A stretch of DNA of 64,000 nt from a virus. Below are positions 16,169-57,826 of the stretch, piece after piece. The notes under the pieces were generated by a model. It worked only from the letters and a program-made list of their open reading frames with translations. It was not told the origin of the DNA and ran no database searches. Made by a program: the position numbers and the translations under genes. The stretch covers positions 434,001 to 498,000 of the IMG/VR virus record IMGVR_UViG_3300049215_000771; one strand, written 5' to 3'. The stretch's first letter is position 1, and every line of letters begins with the position of its first letter.

Positions 16169-17644
16169 TCACGGTAGGCCCAATTCCTTGCGGGCAACTT
16201 TGTCAATCGGCAAAGGAGCGCCCATCACAGCCGTTCGTCCGCTCGTCGTCGTGGGGAAGGCGATAACTTCCTTCATCGAGTCCTCCTTGCACGCCAACAT
16301 CACCAGTCGGTCAATACCGAGAGCAATCCCTGCGTGTGGTGGAGTGCCGTAGTCGAAGGCTTCCAGCATATGCCCCACGCTGCGTTCGATCTCCGGTTGA
16401 GAATATCCCATTACCTTGTACGTTGCTTCCAGCATCGCCCTGGTATGTGCCCGAACGCTACCTGACCCGATCTCCATGCCGTTGCACACCAGGTCGTACT
16501 GATGAGCAACGATGTCACCCACGTTCTGACCCTGGAGTAGCCAATCACTGTGTTCTTCCAGCGGGGCCGAAAACGGGTTGTGCATGAAGGTCCACGAGGA
16601 CTTGCTGTCCAGCTTATCAACATCTTCCTTCGCCGGCTTGAACATTGGGAAGCGGACGATCCAGCAAAACATCAATGCGCCGGCGTCCTTCTGTGCCTGC
16701 GTCCTGATGTCGGGCTTGTCCGTGCCCCACCGATTCATCGCTTCTTCGTAGGTGAAGATCGGGAAGCTGTTGCCGATGCCGCCGAGATAGGGATAGCGTT
16801 TTAACTGCCCGCCTTCATAGGTCCACGGCTCGTAGAGTTCTTTTTCTTTCTCGTAGTCCCAAATCTTCAGCTTGTAGAAAATAGAACGAACAACTTCCGT
16901 AGCTGTGTGCAACACGCTACTTTCGGTGCCGAAAGCCATTTCCAGGTCAACCTGGGTAAACTCGAAGCCCCGGTCGGAACGAGGAGTCTCGTCCCTGAAG
17001 CACCGAGCAATCTGGTAGTAGGCCGGCACGCCACCCGTCATCAACAATTGCTTGTACTGCTGCGGGCTTTGTGGCAGGGCATAGAACTCGTTGTGGTAGA
17101 GCCGAGAAGGAACAACGAAGTCCCGTGCCCCTTCCTTTGTGGGAGCCGCCAAGATTGGCGTCTCGATCTCCAGAAAACCTCGCCCGTCCAGACACTCACG
17201 GATCGCCTGAAGGGTCTTGGCACGAACCCGAAGGTTGCGTGCCATACGCTTGCGGCGAAGGTCGATGTATCTGTAGCGAAGGCGCTTGTCGATGTCGGTT
17301 TCGTATCCGTCCGACTGAACTGTGATCGGCAGCGGCTTCGTGGCGTTGAGAACTTCGACGTTCCCGACCACGAACTCCACCTTGCCCGTGTACATATCGG
17401 GATTTTCCATGTGTTCAGGGCGGGCTTTCACCTGGCCATGAAACCTCACAACATCTTCGAGATTCAACCCGGCAAGGGTTTTGTTGCGACCGACACACTG
17501 CACGATGTAACCTTCACCATCCCGAAGGTCAATGAAGGTCATTTTGCCGTGGTCACGCTTGGCGTCCACCCACCCCTGGATGGAAAAAAGAGTCGAAGAC
17601 CCCGCCAAACGGACTGTGGACTCAATGCTTGTGTGTTGAGACAT
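16169..17644 (-). CDS. aspS: aspartyl-tRNA synthetase, bacterial type without GAD insert
   Basis: Class II synthetase charging tRNA with aspartate, 491 residues. The N-terminal OB-fold anticodon domain (IQGWVDAKRDHGKMTFIDLRD) leads to RYRYIDLRRKRM and the catalytic core: PTKEGARDFVVPSR, PQSPQQYKQLLM, motif 2 FRDE, and motif 3 GIALGIDRLVML. Bacterial enzymes of about 590 residues have a GAD domain between GSDKPD.R and the FPMF strand. Here GTDKPDIR joins WIVRFPMF after some 15 residues, so that insert is missing. Start ATG 17644 (MSQHTSIEST) has GAGGAA upstream; the longer frame overlaps another gene. No Asp tRNA is seen in this window. Confidence 0.93.
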   Translation of the reverse strand: MSQHTSIESTVRLAGSSTLFSIQGWVDAKRDHGKMTFIDLRDGEGYIVQCVGRNKTLAGLNLEDVVRFHGQVKARPEHMENPDMYTGKVEFVVGNVEVLNATKPLPITVQSDGYETDIDKRLRYRYIDLRRKRMARNLRVRAKTLQAIRECLDGRGFLEIETPILAAPTKEGARDFVVPSRLYHNEFYALPQSPQQYKQLLMTGGVPAYYQIARCFRDETPRSDRGFEFTQVDLEMAFGTESSVLHTATEVVRSIFYKLKIWDYEKEKELYEPWTYEGGQLKRYPYLGGIGNSFPIFTYEEAMNRWGTDKPDIRTQAQKDAGALMFCWIVRFPMFKPAKEDVDKLDSKSSWTFMHNPFSAPLEEHSDWLLQGQNVGDIVAHQYDLVCNGMEIGSGSVRAHTRAMLEATYKVMGYSQPEIERSVGHMLEAFDYGTPPHAGIALGIDRLVMLACKEDSMKEVIAFPTTTSGRTAVMGAPLPIDKVARKELGLP

Positions 17645-17867
17645 CGTATTCCTCGGTTTCCAAAGGTTCTGTATGTGTTGCCAAAGGCGGCGCAGGGTAG
17701 TGTTCGCACGGAGAAGGCCACCACACAAGTAGCGGCCCCATGACGTTGACTTCCCACCTTCCCCATCGCCCGCCCAAGGCTCGTCTGTAACCACGATACT
17801 CCCAAAAACGACTAGGTTCGCTCGCCTTGCCACGGAGTTTCTTCCAAAGCAAGATCAGGGACCACAT
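17622..17867 (-). CDS. small protein, unknown
   Basis: An 81-residue Trp/Arg-rich protein (MWSLILLWKKLRGK start). Good ribosome site GGAGTACAATC before ATG 17867, and an overlap of 23 nt with aspS. No family recognised. Support is the ribosome site and position. Confidence 0.5.
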   Translation of the reverse strand: MWSLILLWKKLRGKASEPSRFWEYRGYRRALGGRWGRWEVNVMGPLLVWWPSPCEHYPAPPLATHTEPLETEEYDVSTHKH

Positions 17868-17897: not shown

Positions 17898-19343
17898 TCA
17901 AAAATCAATACCATCTTTGATGATAACCTCGTGACCCTGCTCCTGCAAGATGCGAATTCGTTTCTTGGAGTGATCCAGCAGGTAATCGTTGATGTCGAAC
18001 ACGAAATCGTAGTAATTCAAGCCAGCCTTATCTTCCGCCTTGCGTAGACCTCGGCCCATGCGCTGAACGATTAGGTGATCTGCTTGCCCGCCAGCGGCGT
18101 TGATGAGATTGTGAATGAAAACATTGATGCCTGTGTTGAAGATTTGCTGCGTTGCAATTGCAACAACATCCTGGCTCGATTTCTGAAGCTGCTTGATGAC
18201 ACTTTTCCTGGTTGTCGCATTGTCCTTGCCCTGAACCCACAAGCTGCCAGGAATCAAGCTGTGCAAGGCATCTCCGTGAGCGATGCGATCCACTAAAATC
18301 AACGTCCGGCCTGTTTGTTGGGTCGCCAATCGCTTCACGATGTCGTGGAAGTAGTAGCTTTCAGCAATGCCACGGGTCACGGCATCCATGTAGATGTCAT
18401 GAGGAATTTTTGGTTCGTCGATTGGGTAGAAGATACATTTCGAGGCCGACAAGATGCCACGATTCTGCAATTCCTGTGTTGTCAGGATTCCAGTCGTCGT
18501 AGATTTCTTCAGCTTCAGAACCGGCCCGAAGAAACCTTTGACGTAGAACTTCTGTACTGTGTCCGTCTCGCCAAACTTGAATGGCGTGGCGGACATGGCG
18601 ATCCGTACCGACGCCAACTTCATACGCCTGTACACAGCTTTGGGCATGGCCGACATCATGTCGTGAATTTCGTCAACAATCAAAGCCTTGAACTTTGGCA
18701 GGAGGCGTTCGATTTTCTGTGCCGACTGGACTGTGGCGACTGTGATAAGATTGGGTTTGAACGTACCACCCCAAACCGCCCCGACACCAGGAAACCCCCA
18801 CTGGCAGATTTCATCGTAGTTTTGCTGCGCCAGACCCGCTCGGTTTTGAAGGATCAAAGTAGGAGTGCCTGGAGGCAAAGCCTTCAAAATACCAACCATG
18901 ATGTTGGTTTTACCAGCCGAAGTAGGGGCAAAAACCACGCCTCGGTGGTGTTTGTTGACTAAGTTGATGAATTCAACCTGGTAATCATGGAGGGTGATCG
19001 GGTCTTTGCCTTTCTGGAGCCAGCGGTTGAGAAACTGGTCATCTACCGACTCGATTCCTGTGTTGATACGCTGGCGCTCGTCGATGACCTGGTATTTGAC
19101 TCCCAGCTTATCATCAAGAATAAACTGAACTTCAGGCAGAAGCCCCGTCAGAAACTTTCCTGTCTCGATTTTGAAGAATTCGGTGTAGCCATCCCATAGT
19201 CGTTGTTTGTAACGTCGATTGTGGAAGTAATTCCTTTCACGAAATCGTAGCTTGTCCCACAAGACATGCTTGATACCCATATCATCGGAGATGAAATACG
19301 AGTAGTCATTGCTGATCTTGAGGAGGTTGTTGCTGTTGCTCAT
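17898..19343 (-). CDS. UvsW-like SF2 DNA helicase
   Basis: A 481-residue helicase resembling T4 UvsW, which remodels branched DNA and removes R-loops. Motifs: LHDYQVEFINL (Q-like), FAPTSAGKTN (Walker A, near 140), LIVDEIHDM (DExH), AMSATP (motif III), then IFNTGINV and QRMGRGLRK (motifs V-VI). The N-terminal 110 residues match the small DNA-binding domain of UvsW in size. It joins gp46, gp47 and Dda in a T4-type recombination set. Confidence 0.88.
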   Translation of the reverse strand: MSNSNNLLKISNDYSYFISDDMGIKHVLWDKLRFRERNYFHNRRYKQRLWDGYTEFFKIETGKFLTGLLPEVQFILDDKLGVKYQVIDERQRINTGIESVDDQFLNRWLQKGKDPITLHDYQVEFINLVNKHHRGVVFAPTSAGKTNIMVGILKALPPGTPTLILQNRAGLAQQNYDEICQWGFPGVGAVWGGTFKPNLITVATVQSAQKIERLLPKFKALIVDEIHDMMSAMPKAVYRRMKLASVRIAMSATPFKFGETDTVQKFYVKGFFGPVLKLKKSTTTGILTTQELQNRGILSASKCIFYPIDEPKIPHDIYMDAVTRGIAESYYFHDIVKRLATQQTGRTLILVDRIAHGDALHSLIPGSLWVQGKDNATTRKSVIKQLQKSSQDVVAIATQQIFNTGINVFIHNLINAAGGQADHLIVQRMGRGLRKAEDKAGLNYYDFVFDINDYLLDHSKKRIRILQEQGHEVIIKDGIDF

Positions 19344-22463: not shown

Positions 22464-23003
22464 ATGCTTGACGAATGGTTCAAATGCGCAGTGTGCGGAT
22501 CGAAAGAAGCACCCATCATGAGCATGGGGTACATTTCCCAATGCTATTGTCGAGATTGCGCCGACAACAAAAAAGAAGATTGCAACGCAGCCTTCAAGAA
22601 GGTCCACGACGAAGCTGTGCTTGAAGAAGCCTTTCGCCCCAAAATCAAACACGATGAAATTGACGTGAGAGATGATTACTTTCAGTACATCGTACAAAAC
22701 AAACAAGAACCAGAACTGGAGATGTGCTTCAGGAGAATTGCCGAGCAGGTGTACCTTCTAAAAACTACCACCAAGAAAGATTGGCATAACAACTGGCGCT
22801 GGATTCCTTTCATCGAAAACGTCGATAAAGGGACGTGGCAAGAAGTCCCCAAAGATTTTGTGGAGGCGGCGATCCCGTATTGTTACGACAGGTTGAAAAC
22901 ATACGATGCAGGCAGGGCCACAGCGAAAGATTACTTCACTGCGGCCTGCTGCGGTTTGTATGAGTATGCAAAACTGCACAACTGGCGAGATTGGGCGTAC
23001 TAA
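22464..23003 (+). CDS. zinc-ribbon protein, unknown
   Basis: A 179-residue protein. The N-terminus carries two Cys pairs (CAVC at 8-11, CRDC at 29-32) able to bind zinc. The rest is helical, Trp/Tyr-rich and unrecognised. Its end overlaps the end of valS by 4 nt. Confidence 0.65.
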   Translation: MLDEWFKCAVCGSKEAPIMSMGYISQCYCRDCADNKKEDCNAAFKKVHDEAVLEEAFRPKIKHDEIDVRDDYFQYIVQNKQEPELEMCFRRIAEQVYLLKTTTKKDWHNNWRWIPFIENVDKGTWQEVPKDFVEAAIPYCYDRLKTYDAGRATAKDYFTAACCGLYEYAKLHNWRDWAY

Positions 23004-24421
23004 TACAACTTCCGGTCTTCCGCCTCAAGAATCTTGCCCAAGTTGGGAAAGAAAATTTCCCACCACTCCGTCATCTCGTGCATGATGTCCTGGAGAGTGT
23101 CATAGATTGGGGTTTTCTTGCACTCCTCAATCCACTTGTCACAGTAGGTGTGCCAGAAGAAGTCCGTGAGGGTCTTCAAACCCAGCGGCCAGTTCAGGTC
23201 GTGTTCGATGTAGGTTTGTAATCTCCCAGCGGTCTTGATCCACTCCAGGTAGTATTCCTGGTTCTCTCCCCCAGGACAACCTGGCTCCCAATCCTCCAGC
23301 CCCCACTTCCCATTGCCGTGGATGAACCTGTAGGCATTGACCAGCTTGTTGAGCAGGGCTTTGCCTTTCTTCATGACGGCTTCATCACAGCGGGTGTCCG
23401 TGCCGACCTGGTTGCACGCCGCCCAATAACGAACACCCTCCATGCCGTACTTCTCAACGTAGACGTGCGGCTCGACGAAGTTGCCCGCCGTTTTGCTGAT
23501 CTTGTGGCCGTGCTTGTCCAGGGCGTGGCCGCTGATAATGATTTTCTTCCACGGAACCTGATCGCTGTGATAGAGACTTTTGACGATGGTGAAGAATGCC
23601 CACGTCCTGATGATGTCGTGCGCCTGGAACCTGGCGTCGAAGATCGGGGGATGAAGGGTAGGAATCTTCGTGTGTGCCGCCCACGTCATCTGCGGCGACA
23701 AGCTGGAAGTAAACCAGGTGTCAAAAACGATGTTGTCGGGTTCCCCCGGAATGTGGATGCCGTAGTTACGCTCACGGGAAATAGACCAATCCATCGTGAG
23801 GCCATCCAGCCAGCGATGCAGCCGCTCCTGAAAGACCTTGGGATGCCACTGGATCAGGTCGATAGCCTGCCTGAGACGGTCCAGGTGGTCACGGATGTTG
23901 ATGAACCAGCCCTCGCCTGTCCGTAGCTCGACTTTCTCACCAGAACGCTCGTAGCGGCCTTCCTCGTCGATCTCGGCCTGAGAAACGGAGACACGGGTTT
24001 TGGGGCACCAGAAATAGTCCCTGACGGCTTTGTAGGCGTAGCCCTTCTTGACCAGATCGTGGAACGACATCTCGGCCAAGGCGATGGCGTGGCGGTCATA
24101 GGTGTGGTAGTGATGCTTGCTCCAGCCCATGCCGATTTGTTGGAACAAGTCGGAGTACATCTTCGACGTATTCTCGGCAAACCTGACGATACCGGGCGTA
24201 TCGAAGATTTTGTCCTTCTGTGCCAACTTCTCGGTCGGCAGGCCGTTGCAATCAAAACAGAAAGGGTACAGAAGGGGGTCTTCCTTCTGGCCATCTTCGG
24301 TGAGATGGAAACGCTTGGCCCTGGCAACAAAGTCCATGTGGCAGTACGAGAAAACATGGCCCATATGCAACAGGCCAGAGATCGTCGGCGGCGGAACGTC
24401 GATAAGGTATTTTGGGTCCAT
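23000..24421 (-). CDS. valS: valyl-tRNA synthetase, minimal form without CP1 editing domain
   Basis: Class I synthetase, 473 residues against about 800-950 for cellular ValRS. HMGH lies at 19-22 in PPPTISGLLHMGHVFSY; NGLPTEK, DTWFTSSLSPQM, KISKT at 307-311 and GTDTRCDEAVMKKGKALLNK all match the archaeal/spirochaete-like ValRS branch. Between SQAEIDEE (150) and GWFINI (171) only about 20 residues remain where the CP1 editing domain should be. The C-terminal coiled coil is also absent. Without CP1, Thr mischarged on tRNA-Val could not be cleared. ATG 24421 is chosen for its match to the family. Confidence 0.85.
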   Translation of the reverse strand: MDPKYLIDVPPPTISGLLHMGHVFSYCHMDFVARAKRFHLTEDGQKEDPLLYPFCFDCNGLPTEKLAQKDKIFDTPGIVRFAENTSKMYSDLFQQIGMGWSKHHYHTYDRHAIALAEMSFHDLVKKGYAYKAVRDYFWCPKTRVSVSQAEIDEEGRYERSGEKVELRTGEGWFINIRDHLDRLRQAIDLIQWHPKVFQERLHRWLDGLTMDWSISRERNYGIHIPGEPDNIVFDTWFTSSLSPQMTWAAHTKIPTLHPPIFDARFQAHDIIRTWAFFTIVKSLYHSDQVPWKKIIISGHALDKHGHKISKTAGNFVEPHVYVEKYGMEGVRYWAACNQVGTDTRCDEAVMKKGKALLNKLVNAYRFIHGNGKWGLEDWEPGCPGGENQEYYLEWIKTAGRLQTYIEHDLNWPLGLKTLTDFFWHTYCDKWIEECKKTPIYDTLQDIMHEMTEWWEIFFPNLGKILEAEDRKLY

Positions 24422-25000: not shown

Positions 25001-25382
25001 TCACCCGCCTTTTATGAAGGCGTTCGATAAGGATGGGGTACTTGTCGGAAATGATGTCGAAAGCCAGAATGTAGTAGTACCCAGGTTTCAGGTTTCCAGC
25101 TTCTCGACGTTGCTCGAACACCTTGACGGAGCAGTAGTCCCGGCTCCTGTACTCGACGTAGTAGGCTTCCGGGTGTTTGCGCCGCCAAAGCATGGGTTGT
25201 GGGACACAGATATTGGCGAGATTCAGGTGTTTCTCCAGAAACTCCACCATCGGGCCTTTTTCGGTCATCACAACTCCGTTATAGCCATCAGCCAAAGGCA
25301 GGCCATTGGGAGTCATGAAGCGGACATTTTCTTCGGTCGGGTAGAGCGGCAGATGAAGTCGCTCCATATATCGAGTAGGCAT
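24990..25382 (-). CDS. unknown protein
   Basis: A 130-residue protein, Tyr/Arg-rich (YYVEYRSRDYCSVKVFEQRR). ATG 25382 has GGAG 6 nt upstream; two in-frame residues further out lack one. First gene of the minus-strand unit that runs into valS. Confidence 0.65.
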   Translation of the reverse strand: MPTRYMERLHLPLYPTEENVRFMTPNGLPLADGYNGVVMTEKGPMVEFLEKHLNLANICVPQPMLWRRKHPEAYYVEYRSRDYCSVKVFEQRREAGNLKPGYYYILAFDIISDKYPILIERLHKRRVNDE

Positions 25383-25453
25383 TGTTGACTCCAACAGTTA
25401 CGTCTTGGGGGCTTGTTCAGTTTAGCATATCCGATGAGGATGTCCATATCAAC

Positions 25454-25464
25454 AGGGTATATAT
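25454..25464 (+). promoter_or_regulatory. AGGGTATATAT promoter-like motif
   Basis: AGGGTATATATTGGC lies immediately before ATG 25469, which has no ribosome site. Fifth copy of this motif. Confidence 0.4.
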
Positions 25465-25468
25465 TGGC

Positions 25469-25861
25469 ATGAATTTCCGTCAATTCCTTGAACATGAATT
25501 CCGCTTCCAGGGAGAAACTGTTGGTATCATTACGGCATATAACCCCAATGGTGAAACAATATCCTCCCGTGAGAACCGTAAACTGAATAAACGGCTCTGG
25601 AACGATCTGCGGGCCACTGGATATGACCCGTGGGCGATCAAAGGCAACTACAAAGGAGCCGCAGAACAGTCGTTCTTGGTTTCTGATATTTCTCGTGCGG
25701 ATTTGATCCGCCTGGCTAAGAAATACGACCAGGAGGCCGTCGTGTGGGGCAGGAAAACAGACAATGGCTATGACGTTGAATGGATTGAAGGCGAAGAAAC
25801 AACAAAACGTGACAAGGTGTCCAACATCAGGTCGTTAATTTCGCAGTCAACGAAATTCTGA
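25469..25861 (+). CDS. DUF3293-like protein with capsid-targeting-like N-terminus
   Basis: A 130-residue protein. Residues 1-10 (MNFRQFLEHE) resemble the T4 capsid-targeting peptide with Glu at the expected cleavage position. The body (IITAYNPNGE, then SFLVSDISRADLIRLAKKYD and AVVWGRK) has the pattern of DUF3293. No ribosome site; the start abuts a TATA-like motif. Convergent overlap with the YqeY-tail gene. Confidence 0.65.
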   Translation: MNFRQFLEHEFRFQGETVGIITAYNPNGETISSRENRKLNKRLWNDLRATGYDPWAIKGNYKGAAEQSFLVSDISRADLIRLAKKYDQEAVVWGRKTDNGYDVEWIEGEETTKRDKVSNIRSLISQSTKF

Positions 25862-26435: not shown

Positions 26436-27031
26436 TCTTGATCGAGGCGGTACACGATGTCTGATCGCAGGACGGTTTTGACGCCCTTTGTGACCATCAT
26501 ACCTTCGTGACGTAATTCGTGCGGGAAGATCAACGCCGTTCCCAGCTTCGGCTTTACGATACCCAGCCCCTCAAAACGTGTCTCGCCACCCTCGAAGTCA
26601 TCATTGAGATAGACGATGAACGTCAAGAACGTCCTAGTAATGTCGTCGATCCTGAACATGATGTCGAAGTGCGTGGCGAACCGATGCCCAGGCTCATATT
26701 TGTAATATCGCAACCGCTCATTGAGGCCAATAGGGTTGTGGAACTCGTGTTTCTCTTCCCACAACTTATCGAAGTCCACGAAGGGGTCCGGGCGCAAGTC
26801 TTTATAGAACTGCTCAAGGGATGGGAAGAAGCGAACCCGGTCCCATATCTGCGCAGCCCGTATTGGGTCATCTTTCACAGCCCTGTATCGGGCTTCGGGT
26901 TGACCTTGGCTTGTGTATCGTTGTTCTTGCCAGCCGGCAGCGTCGGCGTATTCCAACTCAGCCTGGCATTCTTCAGGTGTGTAGAAACCGTGGAGCAGAA
27001 GGACATTGGGGAAAACATCTTCGTAGATCAT
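26432..27031 (-). CDS. 2-oxoglutarate/Fe(II) oxygenase, prolyl-4-hydroxylase type
   Basis: A 199-residue double-stranded beta-helix enzyme. HFDIMF supplies the HxD pair (near 118-120), FPHELRHEG the distal His, and TVLRSDIVYRL the 2OG-binding basic residue. FEGGETRF is typical of P4H-like enzymes. It hydroxylates an unknown protein or small molecule; such genes are frequent in large phages. Confidence 0.85.
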   Translation of the reverse strand: MIYEDVFPNVLLLHGFYTPEECQAELEYADAAGWQEQRYTSQGQPEARYRAVKDDPIRAAQIWDRVRFFPSLEQFYKDLRPDPFVDFDKLWEEKHEFHNPIGLNERLRYYKYEPGHRFATHFDIMFRIDDITRTFLTFIVYLNDDFEGGETRFEGLGIVKPKLGTALIFPHELRHEGMMVTKGVKTVLRSDIVYRLDQE

Positions 27032-27759
27032 TCTTCATCTTCCTTGAAGATTTCATCGGCGGGGATCAGTTTGGCGGTGCCGTCTTTGATGGAATCAACA
27101 CGCTCCATCAACTCCCCCAACTTCTCACGTTTGTCCTGGGGATCGCCGTGGAAGCTAATCTCCCAATAAATAGCGTCCAGTACGTCCTGGAGGCTGAAGC
27201 AGCGTTCACCTGCCACGATGGGCTTGCGGCCAACCTTGTAGTCCTTCGGCTTGAAAAACTCTACAGTTTTGTCAAGTTTAACCGGCAAATCGGCCAACTT
27301 GTACATCGGGCTGAAGTCGATGGCCCAGCGCATGATGCCATCGCTGCTGTGTTCGGCGTTCTTGCCAAGGGCGGGGCCAACACCGTGGAAACTGGGGCTA
27401 AGTTCGATGTAGGCAGGGTCTTTGGTGAACTTGCTGTAGTCGGCGTGCCAGTAAATTTCCAGGTGAGTCATCTTCTCATCCGGGTCTTCTTCCTCGCCGC
27501 TCAGGTCGGGTTCCTCGGCCTGAGCATGGAAAGCGTCGATGGCCCCACACCAGGAGTATTGGGCAATGAACATCTTCAGCGCTTTGTACTGATCGACAAT
27601 GCGGAAGATGTCGAGAAGGGTAACGCCATCCTCGATCTCGCAGGCGTCACGCAGATGGCTCCAGACCGACAGCTTCTTCACCCGGCGACGGATGTATTTC
27701 TGCTTGTCGCCGTTCCATTTCTCATAGAACAAGCCAGCCTTGTTGAAGAATACAGTCAT
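27028..27759 (-). CDS. unknown protein
   Basis: A 243-residue acidic protein with no recognised motif; it has an Asp/Glu-rich loop (EEPDLSGEEEDPDEK). Ribosome site AGGGGACTGAC before ATG 27759; ATGA overlap with the oxygenase start. Probably one operon. Confidence 0.7.
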   Translation of the reverse strand: MTVFFNKAGLFYEKWNGDKQKYIRRRVKKLSVWSHLRDACEIEDGVTLLDIFRIVDQYKALKMFIAQYSWCGAIDAFHAQAEEPDLSGEEEDPDEKMTHLEIYWHADYSKFTKDPAYIELSPSFHGVGPALGKNAEHSSDGIMRWAIDFSPMYKLADLPVKLDKTVEFFKPKDYKVGRKPIVAGERCFSLQDVLDAIYWEISFHGDPQDKREKLGELMERVDSIKDGTAKLIPADEIFKEDEE

Positions 27760-28072: not shown

Positions 28073-28558
28073 CTACGTCCCCTCAATCTCCCGAATGTAG
28101 TGGCGAGCCATTTCAATGCCGCTGGGGTTGGGAATCATTGCCGCCTTCTGTCCCAGGAGGCAGGCGGCGATGAGGGCCGCATCCAAAGGCGGAACCGCCG
28201 CAAAGGTCGGCCCAGGCCCGGTGATCCTCACCATGCTGATATGATACCGATGAGGCGTGCAGTAGGTATCTTTCGACATCTCCACCGAGATGATGCAGTG
28301 GTCATCACGGCGACGGTCGATCACCCGGCACAAACCAACCTCAACCTGCCACATGCCGTTTCGAGGGCATTTGTCGGGATTCTCCACCTGCCATCGACTG
28401 CGCTCCACTGCTTCGCATTCGGTGTTGGAGTACACCGGGCTTTCTTCAGCCGGGTACTTGTCCGCAGCTTCCCTCATCTCGACGCCCATCTGAATCATGG
28501 CGGCGATGGTGTAGGGAACGAAATCATCAGGACTTCGCTTCTTCGTTTCCATAGTCAT
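28073..28558 (-). CDS. unknown protein with helical C-terminus
   Basis: A 161-residue protein (MTMETKKRSPDDFVPYTIA start). The middle carries several Cys/His (CPRNGMWQVEVGLC, DDHCIISVE), and the end is helical (LDAALIAACLLGQ). ATG 28558 or 28552 could be used, both inside the thrS 3' end. No family. Confidence 0.6.
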   Translation of the reverse strand: MTMETKKRSPDDFVPYTIAAMIQMGVEMREAADKYPAEESPVYSNTECEAVERSRWQVENPDKCPRNGMWQVEVGLCRVIDRRRDDHCIISVEMSKDTYCTPHRYHISMVRITGPGPTFAAVPPLDAALIAACLLGQKAAMIPNPSGIEMARHYIREIEGT

Positions 28559-29753
28559 ACCCGAAATCGAACTCGTTGAGGTAAGCTGCCTCGGCGAAGA
28601 AATCTCGCTTCGGCAAGGTCTTGTTAGTTCCGTCCCGCTCTCGAACAGTGACGGTTTCGGCTTCCACTTCCCGGTCCCCGATGATGAGCATTCGGGGGAT
28701 GTATTTCTCCTGAGCGATGGCAACCATCTGCGCCACCCGTTTGCCGGAAAGATCAACCATCGGACGAAGTTTCCAGTTCTCCAGCTTCACCTTCAGATCG
28801 AAACAGTAGCCCCTGGCCTTGTCAGTAACAGGCAGGATGGCGTACTGAATGGGGGCGAGCCACACAGGAAGGTGCCCCTGGTAGTGTTCGAGCAGGATGC
28901 CGATGAACCGCTCGAAGCTGCCATAAATGGCACGGTGTACAACCACAGGGGTTTTGCGGGCGTTGTCATGGTCAGTGTACTCCAAACCGAACCGAATGGG
29001 AAGCTGGAAATCCAACTGAATCGTTGCGGTCTGCCATTCCCGGCCTTGGCTGTCTTTCACGAAGAAGTCGATCTTGGGGCCGTAGAATGCCCCTCCACGG
29101 GGGTCTTCGGTGTAATTGGCGTAAGAACCCTGGAGCGAGGCCCGAAGATCGTCTTCAGCCTTGTCCCAGGTCGCCACTTCGCCCATGAAGTTCACCGGCC
29201 TGGTGGACAGCACGGCCCGGAGTTCCATGCCCAGCTTCCAATAGACACGCTGGACCATGACACAAAGCATGGTGATTTCTTTGTCGATTTGATCGGGAGC
29301 GAGGAAGATGTGAGCGTCGTCCTGGCAGAAGGAGCGACAGCGAGTGAGGCCGCTGAGAGCGCCGGAAACCTCGTCACGATGCAGAACACCTTGGTCGGCG
29401 ATGCGGAGGGGAAGTTCTTCGATGGAGCGAGCGCCTTTGGCCTTGTAGATTTCCATGTGGCCGGGGCAGTTCATTGGTTTCGGGATCAACAGGACATCTT
29501 CATCTTTGCCGTGGACCCCGAACATATTCTCTTTGTAGTGTTCCCAATGCCCGGAGATTTCGTACAACTCACGCTTCCACAGGATCGGAGTGCGTACTTC
29601 CTGGTAGTTCCATTGCTTCTGGATGGCCCGAATCTTGTCCTGGAGGATGGTGTAAACGATGTTGCCGTTGGGAAGCCAGATGGGGCAGCCGGGGGCCAGG
29701 TCGGAGAACATGAACAGGTCCATCTCACGACCGATTTCACGATGATCTTTCAT
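28527..29753 (-). CDS. thrS: threonyl-tRNA synthetase lacking TGS and editing domains
   Basis: Class II synthetase, 408 residues against about 640 for bacterial ThrRS. It starts directly at the catalytic core (MFSDLAPGCPIWLPNG; PMNCPGHMEIYK with zinc Cys; LHRDEVSGALSGLTRCRSF motif 2; VVVHRAIYGSFERF motif 3), and keeps the C-terminal anticodon domain. The TGS and N2 editing domains are missing, so Ser-tRNA-Thr could not be cleared in cis. Start ATG 29753 lies 17 nt after a strong hairpin. Weak ribosome site. Confidence 0.92.
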   Translation of the reverse strand: MKDHREIGREMDLFMFSDLAPGCPIWLPNGNIVYTILQDKIRAIQKQWNYQEVRTPILWKRELYEISGHWEHYKENMFGVHGKDEDVLLIPKPMNCPGHMEIYKAKGARSIEELPLRIADQGVLHRDEVSGALSGLTRCRSFCQDDAHIFLAPDQIDKEITMLCVMVQRVYWKLGMELRAVLSTRPVNFMGEVATWDKAEDDLRASLQGSYANYTEDPRGGAFYGPKIDFFVKDSQGREWQTATIQLDFQLPIRFGLEYTDHDNARKTPVVVHRAIYGSFERFIGILLEHYQGHLPVWLAPIQYAILPVTDKARGYCFDLKVKLENWKLRPMVDLSGKRVAQMVAIAQEKYIPRMLIIGDREVEAETVTVRERDGTNKTLPKRDFFAEAAYLNEFDFGYDYGNEEAKS

Positions 29754-46704: not shown

Positions 46705-46942
46705 CGTCGATGCTCCTGTGTTTCTTGTTGACCACCACTTCGATGGGATCAACACAAACAACACTCCCATCTGCCAGTTCCACAATTATACAAAGACCGT
46801 GGGAGTCGTGGTACTCTCGAACGTACCCGACTCCCTCCACCGGCTCTCCGTGATGTTCTGTGTCGTATTCGTTGCCGTTGGTGCCTCGGAAGTATACCGT
46901 TTTACCAACGGCATCACGACACTTCTCCCACAAATTTCTCAT
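46694..46942 (-). CDS. SH3-like small protein ending KKHRSIDDAT
   Basis: An 82-residue protein: GKTVYFRGTNGNEYDTEHHG then CIIVELADGSVVCVDPIEVV, a barrel-like fold. C-terminal tag HRSIDD, two residues before the end. The tag codons contain the ribosome site and ATG of the next gene. Confidence 0.7.
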   Translation of the reverse strand: MRNLWEKCRDAVGKTVYFRGTNGNEYDTEHHGEPVEGVGYVREYHDSHGLCIIVELADGSVVCVDPIEVVVNKKHRSIDDAT

Positions 46943-48141
46943 TTCTTCAACACCACCGAAGAACCATCGCTCCGATCCCGAATCTCACAACCCAGGTCGA
47001 TGATCCTTCTTTTCAGGGCATCGGCCCCAGCCCAATTTCGCTGCCGCCTGCATTCCTCTCGGAGTTTGGCAAGCTGGATGGCGTCGTCGGGAGCATCCTC
47101 ATCCGAGAACATCTGGAAACCGAGTAATTCGGCTTGCTCCAGGCTGGGATTCACGAAAGTCGCTGCGATGGCTTCCGAAGTATTCAGGTTGGCGTCCATC
47201 GCCTTGGCGAAATCTTCCGAAACTCCATGTTCTGGTGCCGACTTCAGCCGATTCCTCAAAGCCTTCCACTGTTGCGCCGAAGTCCCATCCAACAACCCTT
47301 CAACGGATAAAGGTTTGGCATAACTGGCCGAGAGAATCCAGAAGCGAATCACGTTGGGGTCCGTGCCATTCGCCCGATAGTCCCGGATGTTGACGGCGTT
47401 CCCCTCGGATTTTCCCATCCTCCTGTCGCCGATCTGAACCATCCCATTGTGGAGCCAGATGTCCGCCAAGGGCGATCCGGCATGAAGGCATTCGGACTGA
47501 GCGATCTCATTCTCGTGATGCGGAAACTTCAAATCGTCGCCGCCCACATGAATATCCACCGTGAACCCAATGGTCCTTTCAATCATGATGGAGCATTCAA
47601 GATGCCAACCAGGTCGCCCCTTGGGGAATTCAGACTCATTGGCCTTCGGCCCCTTCCACAAAACGAAATCTTCCGCCGTTTTCCGACGTGAAAGTTTCCC
47701 ATATCCAGGGAACGTCTTCGTTTTGAAGCGAATGTCGCCATCTTTGTGGTAAGCATGGCCACTTTCGACAAGCGCCGTAGCTGCAACCTTCATCGGGATC
47801 ATGTAGTCCGTCACACGGGGGTACAAGTCCGCCTTCTGGACGTTCAGCCAGCCCATGTCATTGAAATAGTCGTCGATGAAGCGGTCAGCCAGTTCTTTGC
47901 TGGTCACGCCCTCCTTTGCCGCCCGATCCACGATTTTGTCGTCCACGTCCGTAAAATTCTGAACGTGGTAGACCTTCTGCCGGCGTTTGAGCCAGCGTTT
48001 CAGCACGTCCCACACAACATAGCTCCTGGCGTGTCCCAGGTGGCAGTAGTCGTAGACCGTTACACCACAAGCGTACATAGTGATCGGGCGGTCACTAGGG
48101 ACTTCTTTTTCACGCCGGGTTAGGGAGTCGTGCAGTTTCAT
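46939..48141 (-). CDS. cysS: cysteinyl-tRNA synthetase
   Basis: Class I synthetase, 400 residues (about 460 in E. coli). YACGVTVYDYCHLGHARSYV holds the zinc Cys and HxGH motif; HHENEIAQSE and WLHNGMVQIGDRRMGKSEGN (KMSKS as MGKSE) follow. A shortened helical anticodon region ends ADALKRRIIDLGCEI. No tRNA-Cys is seen in the window. ATG 48141 chosen; the longer frame runs back through the tRNA. Confidence 0.93.
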   Translation of the reverse strand: MKLHDSLTRREKEVPSDRPITMYACGVTVYDYCHLGHARSYVVWDVLKRWLKRRQKVYHVQNFTDVDDKIVDRAAKEGVTSKELADRFIDDYFNDMGWLNVQKADLYPRVTDYMIPMKVAATALVESGHAYHKDGDIRFKTKTFPGYGKLSRRKTAEDFVLWKGPKANESEFPKGRPGWHLECSIMIERTIGFTVDIHVGGDDLKFPHHENEIAQSECLHAGSPLADIWLHNGMVQIGDRRMGKSEGNAVNIRDYRANGTDPNVIRFWILSASYAKPLSVEGLLDGTSAQQWKALRNRLKSAPEHGVSEDFAKAMDANLNTSEAIAATFVNPSLEQAELLGFQMFSDEDAPDDAIQLAKLREECRRQRNWAGADALKRRIIDLGCEIRDRSDGSSVVLKK

Positions 48142-48177
48142 GCGCCCATAGTACCCCGATTTAGAAGAAGTGTAAAG

Positions 48178-48256
48178 TAGCCTCGGTGGGAGTCGAACCC
48201 ACATCCTTTCGGCACCGGGTTTAAGCCGGCTGCGTATACCGTTCCGCCACGAGGCC
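48178..48256 (-). tRNA. tRNA-Leu(UAA)
   Basis: Type II with a short variable arm (GCC-GAAA-GGA). Anticodon loop CTTAAAC, D-arm GCGGAACGGTATACGC, discriminator A. Reads UUA and UUG. Confidence 0.9.
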
Positions 48257-48260
48257 ATTC

Positions 48261-48302
48261 AACCAAATCGGTTGAAAGTTGGTGTTTTCAACCGATTTGG
48301 TT
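48261..48302 (-). terminator. perfect 17-bp hairpin between pheS and tRNA-Leu(UAA)
   Basis: AACCAAATCGGTTGAAA pairs exactly with TTTCAACCGATTTGGTT, 8-nt loop. It starts at the pheS stop codon and ends 5 nt before the tRNA. No U-tract, so it may be an RNase III site or mRNA end cap rather than a terminator. Confidence 0.5.
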
Positions 48303-49369
48303 TATCTAATCTCGACCTTCAATTCCTTCATCCGGTCACGAAGCTGTTGCTGACGGGCGTTGATTTCCTCGTTCGTCAGCACCCGATCCATCGACCTGTA
48401 GGTGATGCGGTAGCAATGAGATTCCCGCTCACCTTTTTTGAAAGAATCCAGCAGCTTGACACTTTCAACCAGATCGCCGTGTAGATCACGAACAATCTGG
48501 TAGAAATCGTTCTCGCTGTAGCCAGCCGGAATCCAGAACGCCATGTCTTTGACACACGGCGGCTGGACCGAGAATGGCTTGAATTTAGAGTCCAGGTCTT
48601 TGAACTGGTTGAGGAAGCGTTCGTCCTCACTCCAGAACAATCGGATGTCCGGGATGTCGAAAACAAGCATTGCCAGCCGCTCCAGGCCAACACCGAACGC
48701 CCAGCCCTGGGTGTAGTCACTGTAGTTGTCACCAAGAGGCCCAAGGGCTTCACAGCGCTTGATAACATCGGGATGGACGATGCCACAACCCGCTACTTCC
48801 AGCCACTCGCCATTCCATTCGATCTCCAACTCCCAAGAAGGGTTCGTGAACGGGAAGTAGGAGTCCACGAATCTGTAGTTCAACTGCCGGTTATGTGGGC
48901 TGTACGGGATGTTGAGAACTCGTTCTATCATGTCGAACATATGTTCCTTCAACATCCTCTCAAGGTCCAATGTCTGATATTTCGCCTTGTGAAAAAGGCC
49001 CACGCCTTCAACCTGGTGGAACACCGGGTAATGCGTGCGATCAATGGTGTCTCGCCGGTACACGTCGCCACAGACCAGGAACTTCATGTGTCCCTTGTTG
49101 ATGAGCATGTGCTGATGGGCGCTGGTATGCGTCCTCAGAACGTGCTTCTCGTCAACGTAGTAGGTGTCAGAAGGCCGGCGAGAGGGATGGTCGGGTGGAA
49201 TCAGCAGATGGTCGAAGTTATCTTCCACTGTCACCACCGGCCCGAACGTCTCGTAGATTTCGTGGCCGGGGAAGGCCATATAGATAGCCTTCTTGACAAT
49301 TTCGAGCGGGTGTCGTTCCTTCAGATGGAGGTTACGCCCCATTTTTTCTTTGATGCTCGGCGGGATCAT
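48302..49369 (-). CDS. pheS: single-chain phenylalanyl-tRNA synthetase, mitochondrial type
   Basis: A 355-residue fusion of a PheRS alpha catalytic core and a C-terminal FDX-ACB domain. Core motifs: LRTHTSAHQH, VCGDVYRRDTIDRTHYPVFH (motif 2), EWLEVAGCGIVHP and GWAFGVGLERLAM (motif 3). The last 90 residues (VKDMAFWIPAG, VRDLHGDLVESVKLLDSF, CYRITYRSMDRVLTNEE) are the anticodon-binding domain that bacterial enzymes carry at the end of the beta chain. This one-chain layout is that of mitochondrial PheRS and has no B3/B4 editing site. No beta-subunit gene is visible. ATGA overlap with a small membrane gene. Confidence 0.92.
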   Translation of the reverse strand: MIPPSIKEKMGRNLHLKERHPLEIVKKAIYMAFPGHEIYETFGPVVTVEDNFDHLLIPPDHPSRRPSDTYYVDEKHVLRTHTSAHQHMLINKGHMKFLVCGDVYRRDTIDRTHYPVFHQVEGVGLFHKAKYQTLDLERMLKEHMFDMIERVLNIPYSPHNRQLNYRFVDSYFPFTNPSWELEIEWNGEWLEVAGCGIVHPDVIKRCEALGPLGDNYSDYTQGWAFGVGLERLAMLVFDIPDIRLFWSEDERFLNQFKDLDSKFKPFSVQPPCVKDMAFWIPAGYSENDFYQIVRDLHGDLVESVKLLDSFKKGERESHCYRITYRSMDRVLTNEEINARQQQLRDRMKELKVEIR

Positions 49370-57735: not shown

Positions 57736-57826
57736 TTGGCAAGGTGGGATTCGATACCCACACGGTAGATTCGTCAACCTACCAACCCCCTCTAGCGGGG
57801 GCTGCGTCTTCTTCCGCCACTTGCCA
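57736..57826 (-). tRNA. type II tRNA-like gene, anticodon unclear
   Basis: Acceptor TGGCAAG/CTTGCCA, D-arm GCGGAAGAAGACGC without GG, anticodon stem GCCCC with an 8-nt loop CGCTAGAG, long variable arm (GGTAG...CTACC), and a T-loop one base too long (TATCGAAT). CTA or TAG could be the anticodon. Leu-like; probably degenerate or specialised. Confidence 0.5.

Follow-up and report, generated by a model that had tools for sequence, protein, structure and literature searches.

Can a valyl-tRNA synthetase (ValRS) that has lost its CP1 editing domain still serve a phage as a charging enzyme, given that in ValRS and LeuRS such domains are usually regarded as near-obligatory for accurate translation? 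This question is raised by a gene at positions 23000..24421 (minus strand) of a 64,000-nt window, the whole stretch of DNA analyzed here, which comprises bases 434001-498000 of the 532,729-base IMG/VR record IMGVR_UViG_3300049215_000771. The record is that of a large tailed phage (a huge phage), judging by its genes for a tail-fibre assembly protein, an SbcCD-like nuclease, a Dda-like helicase and ribonucleotide reductase. The gene encodes 473 amino acids, from an ATG start matching those of the relatives L030, L032 and L041 to a TAG stop, and some 12 nt separate its start from the end of the preceding upstream ORF. An upstream TTG start (507 aa) was discarded, as the relatives begin at the position of the ATG. 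Read-through of the TAG was considered owing to predicted amber-suppressor-like tRNAs and was rejected as well, the frame past the stop giving only about 22 more residues and no domain. In the long ORFs of this phage TAG serves as an ordinary stop (20 of 153), and nothing in their stop usage points to TAG being recoded genome-wide. ARAGORN predicts tRNAs with amber (CTA) and opal (TCA) anticodons, candidate suppressors, at 1393-1540 of L012, 837-930 of L010 and 57736-57826 of the window.

The gene is flanked on one side by a protein of unknown family (27028-27759, minus strand) and on the other by a UvsW-like helicase (17898-19343, minus strand). By eye, homologues of both also flank the corresponding gene in L030 and L161, so that the neighborhood appears conserved, and a homologue of the unknown-family protein is present in L031 too. 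A DUF3293 protein weakly similar to S-adenosylmethionine lyase, possibly acting in counter-defence, is encoded at 25382-25861 (plus strand), and at the tRNA-rich genome end (L007, 12078-13943) lies an ORF that by eye resembles a TROVE/Ro60 RNA-binding protein, including a VWA-like part.

Family profiles identify the product, here termed mini-ValRS, as a ValRS. Its top NCBIfam family is ValRS NF009687/PRK13208 with 353 bits, followed by IleRS (159), LeuRS (88) and MetRS (73). It scores below the full-length family cut-offs (353 versus 738 bits for the NCBIfam ValRS), as expected for a core-only protein from which so much sequence is absent, and is therefore classed as a CP1-less variant and not as a canonical ValRS. 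Although the best PDB match in phmmer is an IleRS (8c9e, 97.5 bits), with ValRS close behind at 89.4 bits, the profile libraries and the pocket residues favor ValRS. P10/P11, W236 and W274 align with P41/P42, W456 and W495 of Thermus thermophilus ValRS, which we take to be the valine-pocket residues of structure 1gax, and P10/P11 belong to the PPP motif of ValRS, which reads GPP in IleRS. Alignments place the HIGH motif, here HMGH, at residues 19-22 (H19-H22, within PPPTISGLLHMGHVFSY; 24356..24367, minus strand) and the KMSKS-type loop, here KISKT, at residues 307-311 (K307-T311; 23489..23503, minus strand). Pocket residues and loop are conserved in every mini-ValRS with sequence at those positions, S309 and K310 of the loop being kept in all. 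In a tree with phage IleRSs as outgroup the protein groups inside ValRS with 100/100 support. Identity as a MetRS, a synthetase of similarly compact architecture, was ruled out by the low score, by PPPTISG, which is not a MetRS-type motif, and by the presence of a separate MetRS in the phage.

Alignments with full-length bacterial-type and archaeal-type bacterial ValRSs put the gap of mini-ValRS exactly at CP1. Between the "..QAE.E" and "ERSG" strands cellular archaeal-type ValRSs have 147-187 residues (nearly all 147-163), and mini-ValRS has 6 (QAEI-DEEGRY-ERSG). The junction, residues 148-172 (QAEIDEEGRYERSGEKVELRTGEGW; 23906..23980, minus strand), marks the site of the missing domain of about 150 residues and is modeled as a short beta ribbon. 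Further losses comprise some 45 N-terminal residues, the Zn-knob-like insertion before FDTWF and about 100-150 residues of the C-terminal tRNA-binding region. The C-terminal coiled coil is absent too, which is, on this comparison, ancestral and outside the phage reduction, because full-length cellular archaeal-type ValRSs (for example L063, L064 and L091) also end without one.

An AlphaFold2 model built on an alignment of 39 sequences (pLDDT 91.1, pTM 0.90) has a confident MetRS-like core. Model secondary structure and alignment delimit a shortened helical anticodon-binding domain of five helices at residues 347-473 (23003..23383, minus strand), a bundle resembling that of class Ia synthetases. 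In Foldseek, with TM normalized by query (TMq), the model reaches 0.83 to T. thermophilus ValRS (1gax) and 0.79 to MetRS; the BFVD library of viral models contains giant-virus MetRS, IleRS and LeuRS and one ValRS fragment, and no mini-ValRS. The preliminary description of this locus, made from the sequence, had called the protein a ValRS without CP1 but with intact catalytic motifs and had proposed alignment with full-length ValRS and structure prediction as checks. Its assignment is borne out by the family ranking, by the alignments, which locate the deletion precisely at CP1, and by the modeled class Ia core, and its view of the motifs by HMGH, KISKT and the valine-pocket residues. It had also counted about 20 residues remaining at CP1 and listed the coiled coil among the missing parts. 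The editing domain is indeed gone, with 6 residues left and the figure of 20 including the retained ribbon strands; the coiled coil is truly absent, as it is from cellular enzymes of the archaeal type.

The same CP1 deletion occurs in seven further phage records at 44-57% identity (L030, 57%; L161, L162 and L163, 52-55%; L032, 45%; L041 and L164, 44-45%), besides one frameshifted record. Of these, L032 is LR745206, a 634.8-kb uncultured huge phage, and L163, which lacks its N-terminus because the contig ends there, is otherwise identical to L162. The phage form measures about 440-483 aa, and GC3 of the genes spans 0.76 to 0.23. All archaeal-type ValRSs found by the IMG/VR scan are of the short form, and none is short among the best 80 bacterial genome matches, nearly all of which span residues ~5-435 over 1.8-2.1 kb, that is, with CP1. 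Comparison of the window gene with L030 gives dN 0.38, dS 1.70 and dN/dS ~0.22, a ratio that is indicative only, with dS near saturation, and that points to purifying selection in the window lineage. Chance or artefact as the source of the deletion is, on these comparisons, excluded, because seven other phage records carry it. One could suspect decay into a pseudogene or faulty assembly from the homologue in L031 (5941-7362), which is broken by several frameshifts, perhaps through sequencing errors or decay; with a clean identical deletion in seven other records, an independent one in a cultured phage, purifying selection and a confident fold, however, this explanation has next to no probability for the window gene.

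The independent case is found in Stenotrophomonas phages RAS14 and CM1, which encode a 449-aa ValRS, annotated in RAS14 simply as "valyl-tRNA synthetase", without CP1. Like the window phage, RAS14 has a tRNA-Val gene (UAC) beside its mini-ValRS. The RAS14/CM1 enzyme differs in retaining the N-terminal extension and in that the CP1 stalk is gone as well. It matches best another ValRS model, one of bacterial type, and in the tree RAS14 falls with bacterial ValRS (100/98), whereas the other four mini-ValRSs form a 100/100 clade nested among archaeal-type bacterial enzymes. A single origin of all mini-ValRSs was rejected (AU test, p=0.0001), with RAS14 on a long branch. CP1 loss in phage ValRS thus appears to have happened at least twice independently, on support that is strong but model-dependent. 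A scan of IMG/VR with the RAS14 protein found no relatives of it.

What would such an enzyme charge? ARAGORN predicts 56 tRNAs, 14 of them in the window and 42 in the remaining record. Four are tRNA-Vals (GAC, GAC, CAC and UAC) in which, by eye, A73, A35, C36 and G3-C70 match the published valine identity (PMC9976931); position 4-69 looks C-G where E. coli has U-A. The phage further encodes about 15 synthetase genes including ValRS. It is improbable, against this background, that mini-ValRS is a synthetase-like protein with another job, such as supplying aminoacyl-AMP or aminoacyl groups as a donor enzyme, or binding tRNA or host factors as a decoy. Duplicated synthetases do acquire nontranslational roles, according to a review (PMC9437257), and the tRNA-binding parts of mini-ValRS are reduced. 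An anticodon-type helical bundle is nevertheless modeled with high confidence, tRNA-Val genes and a large synthetase set are at hand, and the neighbors scanned include no peptide-ligase or carrier-protein genes.

If mini-ValRS charges tRNA-Val, its proofreading might reside elsewhere in the genome, and the preliminary description had named a separately encoded editing domain as an objection to its reading. A profile built from 18 cellular CP1 domains matches, in the window phage and LR745206 alike, IleRS only, and across four further records its sole match is the IleRS of G007. No tRNA_SAD domain was found in the window phage genome, and neither it nor four relatives yielded a YbaK/ProX domain, these negatives applying to records that may be incomplete and to hydrolases not so diverged as to escape profile searches. 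Mini-ValRS thus fits the editing-deficient pattern of host-restricted organisms (Mycoplasma, Microsporidia), with the domain deleted and no recognized replacement in trans in a possibly incomplete record. That CP1 is also missing in related huge phages and, independently, in RAS14/CM1 suggests that these phages can dispense with ValRS proofreading or rely on the host for it. Alternatively, the enzyme could be accurate without editing, its synthetic site, or pretransfer hydrolysis there, discriminating better against Thr and alpha-aminobutyrate (Abu) and making CP1 dispensable. Some way of coping with error must exist, given an intact synthetic site in both phage lineages and constraint in the window lineage, and nothing singles out this one. 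The pocket residues are unchanged, and the PPPT motif near the site is common to full-length, CP1-bearing archaeal-type ValRSs and is hence no compensating change. Thr is almost isosteric with Val, and under the double-sieve model (PMC9023258) ValRS requires a second sieve for that reason. We consider improved discrimination unlikely.

Our preferred reading, to which we assign a probability of roughly 0.7, is that mini-ValRS is a compact, working phage ValRS of archaeal-type origin, probably error-prone, that charges tRNA-Val without proofreading of its own. It would activate valine and charge tRNA-Val, probably the phage's own four tRNA-Vals, by means of the intact class Ia active site and the shortened helical anticodon domain seen in the model, and would itself contribute no hydrolytic proofreading. 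It would descend from a full-length cellular archaeal-type ValRS that, within a huge-phage lineage, shed CP1 together with the N-terminal extension, the knob and the C-terminal part. Against this reading, the tRNA-binding region is heavily cut, with no C-terminal alpha/beta part, so that affinity for tRNA could be low. Removal of Thr- and Abu-tRNA is normally the task of CP1 in ValRS (PMC11295145), and we infer that mischarging of tRNA-Val with Thr and Abu would be more frequent than with cellular ValRS. Such error may be tolerable in a short infection during which the quality control of the host persists in the cell; short infections, mild effects of Val-to-Thr replacement and remaining host capacity would be the simplest reasons for a tolerated loss. 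The preliminary description had supposed that host ValRS might clear the misacylated tRNA, and had suggested that the enzyme may trade accuracy for speed or permit statistical proteins. In E. coli, ValRS deals with Thr-tRNA(Val) chiefly in cis and EF-Tu makes little difference (PMC9023258), so that rescue by host ValRS may be incomplete and weaker than was supposed.

The other synthetases bear on whether lost editing is a by-product or itself an advantage. The window holds a ThrRS of 408 aa with catalytic and anticodon domains only and no N-terminal editing domain (28527..29753, minus strand; TIGR00418, 452.7 bits, profile 171-549/565) and an AspRS of 554 aa (16169..17833, minus strand; PRK00476, 522.7 bits, above cut-off). 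A single-chain mitochondrial-type PheRS of 355 aa (48302..49369, minus strand; TIGR00469, 385.7 bits, cut-off 258) belongs to a nonediting type and, as there is no beta subunit, has no B3/B4 editing domain. The 439-aa ORF at 46939..48258 (minus strand), considered as a mini-LeuRS and rejected, is a CysRS (TIGR00435, 335.6 bits) whose true start is probably near 48141; a search with PF00133 found no LeuRS in the window phage. The phage also encodes IleRS (922 aa), GluRS, MetRS, LysRS and TyrRS, together with AlaRS-like (337 aa), HisRS-like (205 aa), ArgRS-like and weakly GlyRS-like proteins. Several of the phage's synthetases, namely SerRS and the HisRS-like, AlaRS-like and GlyRS-like proteins, are cut down to cores; the SerRS lacks its N-terminal arm, and the HisRS-like and GlyRS-like C-termini are trimmed. 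Among normally editing families, ThrRS and the AlaRS-like protein are both without an editing domain. CP1-less mini-LeuRSs of 422-427 aa (TIGR00396, 380-418 bits) accompany mini-ValRS in four records: L167 (G004), L168 (G005), L169 (G007) and L170 (LR745206). IleRS, on the other hand, was found in three records (the window phage, LR745206 and G007), and in each its CP1 looks intact, with the motifs TTTPWT/WTTQPWT and GTG.VH..GHG.DD in the first two. In LR745206 an apparent phage elongation factor G, recognized by its sequence (L032, 11714-13678), adjoins mini-ValRS and MetRS.

The co-occurrence of mini-ValRS and mini-LeuRS in four records, and the ThrRS and AlaRS-like genes of the window phage, could be taken to mean that mistranslation is useful, low-fidelity charging with Val (and Leu, Thr and Ala) diversifying phage proteins into a statistical proteome or burdening the host. 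The intact-looking CP1 of IleRS is not what a general drive toward mistranslation would lead one to expect, and the trimming of the SerRS arm, the HisRS/GlyRS-like C-termini and the ValRS C-terminus fits size reduction better; we hold useful mistranslation to be quite unlikely. With nonediting parts trimmed in this genome too, the balance favors size reduction over selected mistranslation as the driver, and the preserved CP1 of IleRS indicates that not all editing is expendable. Within the reading of mini-ValRS as a compact, error-prone enzyme, we tentatively raise a wider proposal, which we hold at somewhat less than even odds: huge phages may have dismantled proofreading repeatedly and selectively, in ValRS twice and in LeuRS, ThrRS and AlaRS, with PheRS a one-chain nonediting enzyme and IleRS alone still editing. 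If true, a lytic virus would translate with a charging system that owes part of its accuracy to the host, and the tolerated error rates and the isoleucine exception would become directly testable in cultured phages. With ValRS, and in relatives LeuRS, lacking CP1 and IleRS retaining it, one may ask what kinds of error are too costly for a virus. Naturally occurring ValRSs of 440-480 residues from which CP1 is cleanly gone, under selection and reached twice, are minimal enzymes for studying the purpose of CP1 and compact scaffolds for biochemistry, and they offer a test of whether host proofreading serves viral tRNAs in trans.

Of known systems, archaeal-type bacterial ValRS (NF009687/PRK13208; Rickettsiales, Clostridia and many others) shares with mini-ValRS the core, the PPPT signature, the DDNGLPTE/AHDIIRTWAF-type motifs and the lack of a coiled coil; at ~750-900 aa it carries the CP1, N-terminal extension, knob and C-terminal part that the phage form lacks. 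Among class Ia synthetases without CP1 a likeness is found in the LeuRS of Mycoplasma mobile (PDB 3ziu; Foldseek TMq 0.71); that enzyme is a cellular LeuRS of 637 aa, and the mini-LeuRSs of the phages are smaller still. Editing-domain mutations or deletions are established in Mollicutes synthetases (PMC4014445), and editing-deficient synthetases in Microsporidia (PMC11415595). Huge phages, the same kind of genome, were reported to carry up to 15 synthetases per genome (Al-Shayeb et al. 2020, PMC7162821), the accessible text treating synthetase presence and phylogeny and not missing editing domains. Our literature search, covering few subscription journals, found no account of a CP1-less ValRS or of missing editing domains in phage synthetases. 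What appears to be new, then, is a CP1-less ValRS in phages; editing-deficient synthetases as such, in Mollicutes and Microsporidia, and a functional viral example were already known. The latter, a precedent for the reading of mini-ValRS as a working enzyme, is the Tupanvirus mini-AlaRS: although it lacks both the editing domain and C-Ala, it charges tRNA-Ala and can take the place of AlaRS in yeast (PMC10036535). It resembles mini-ValRS as a virus synthetase stripped of editing and tRNA-binding domains, its function having been demonstrated, and it differs in being a class II enzyme of a eukaryotic giant virus; in that class of enzyme the editing domain lost was a C-terminal one and not an insertion into the catalytic domain.
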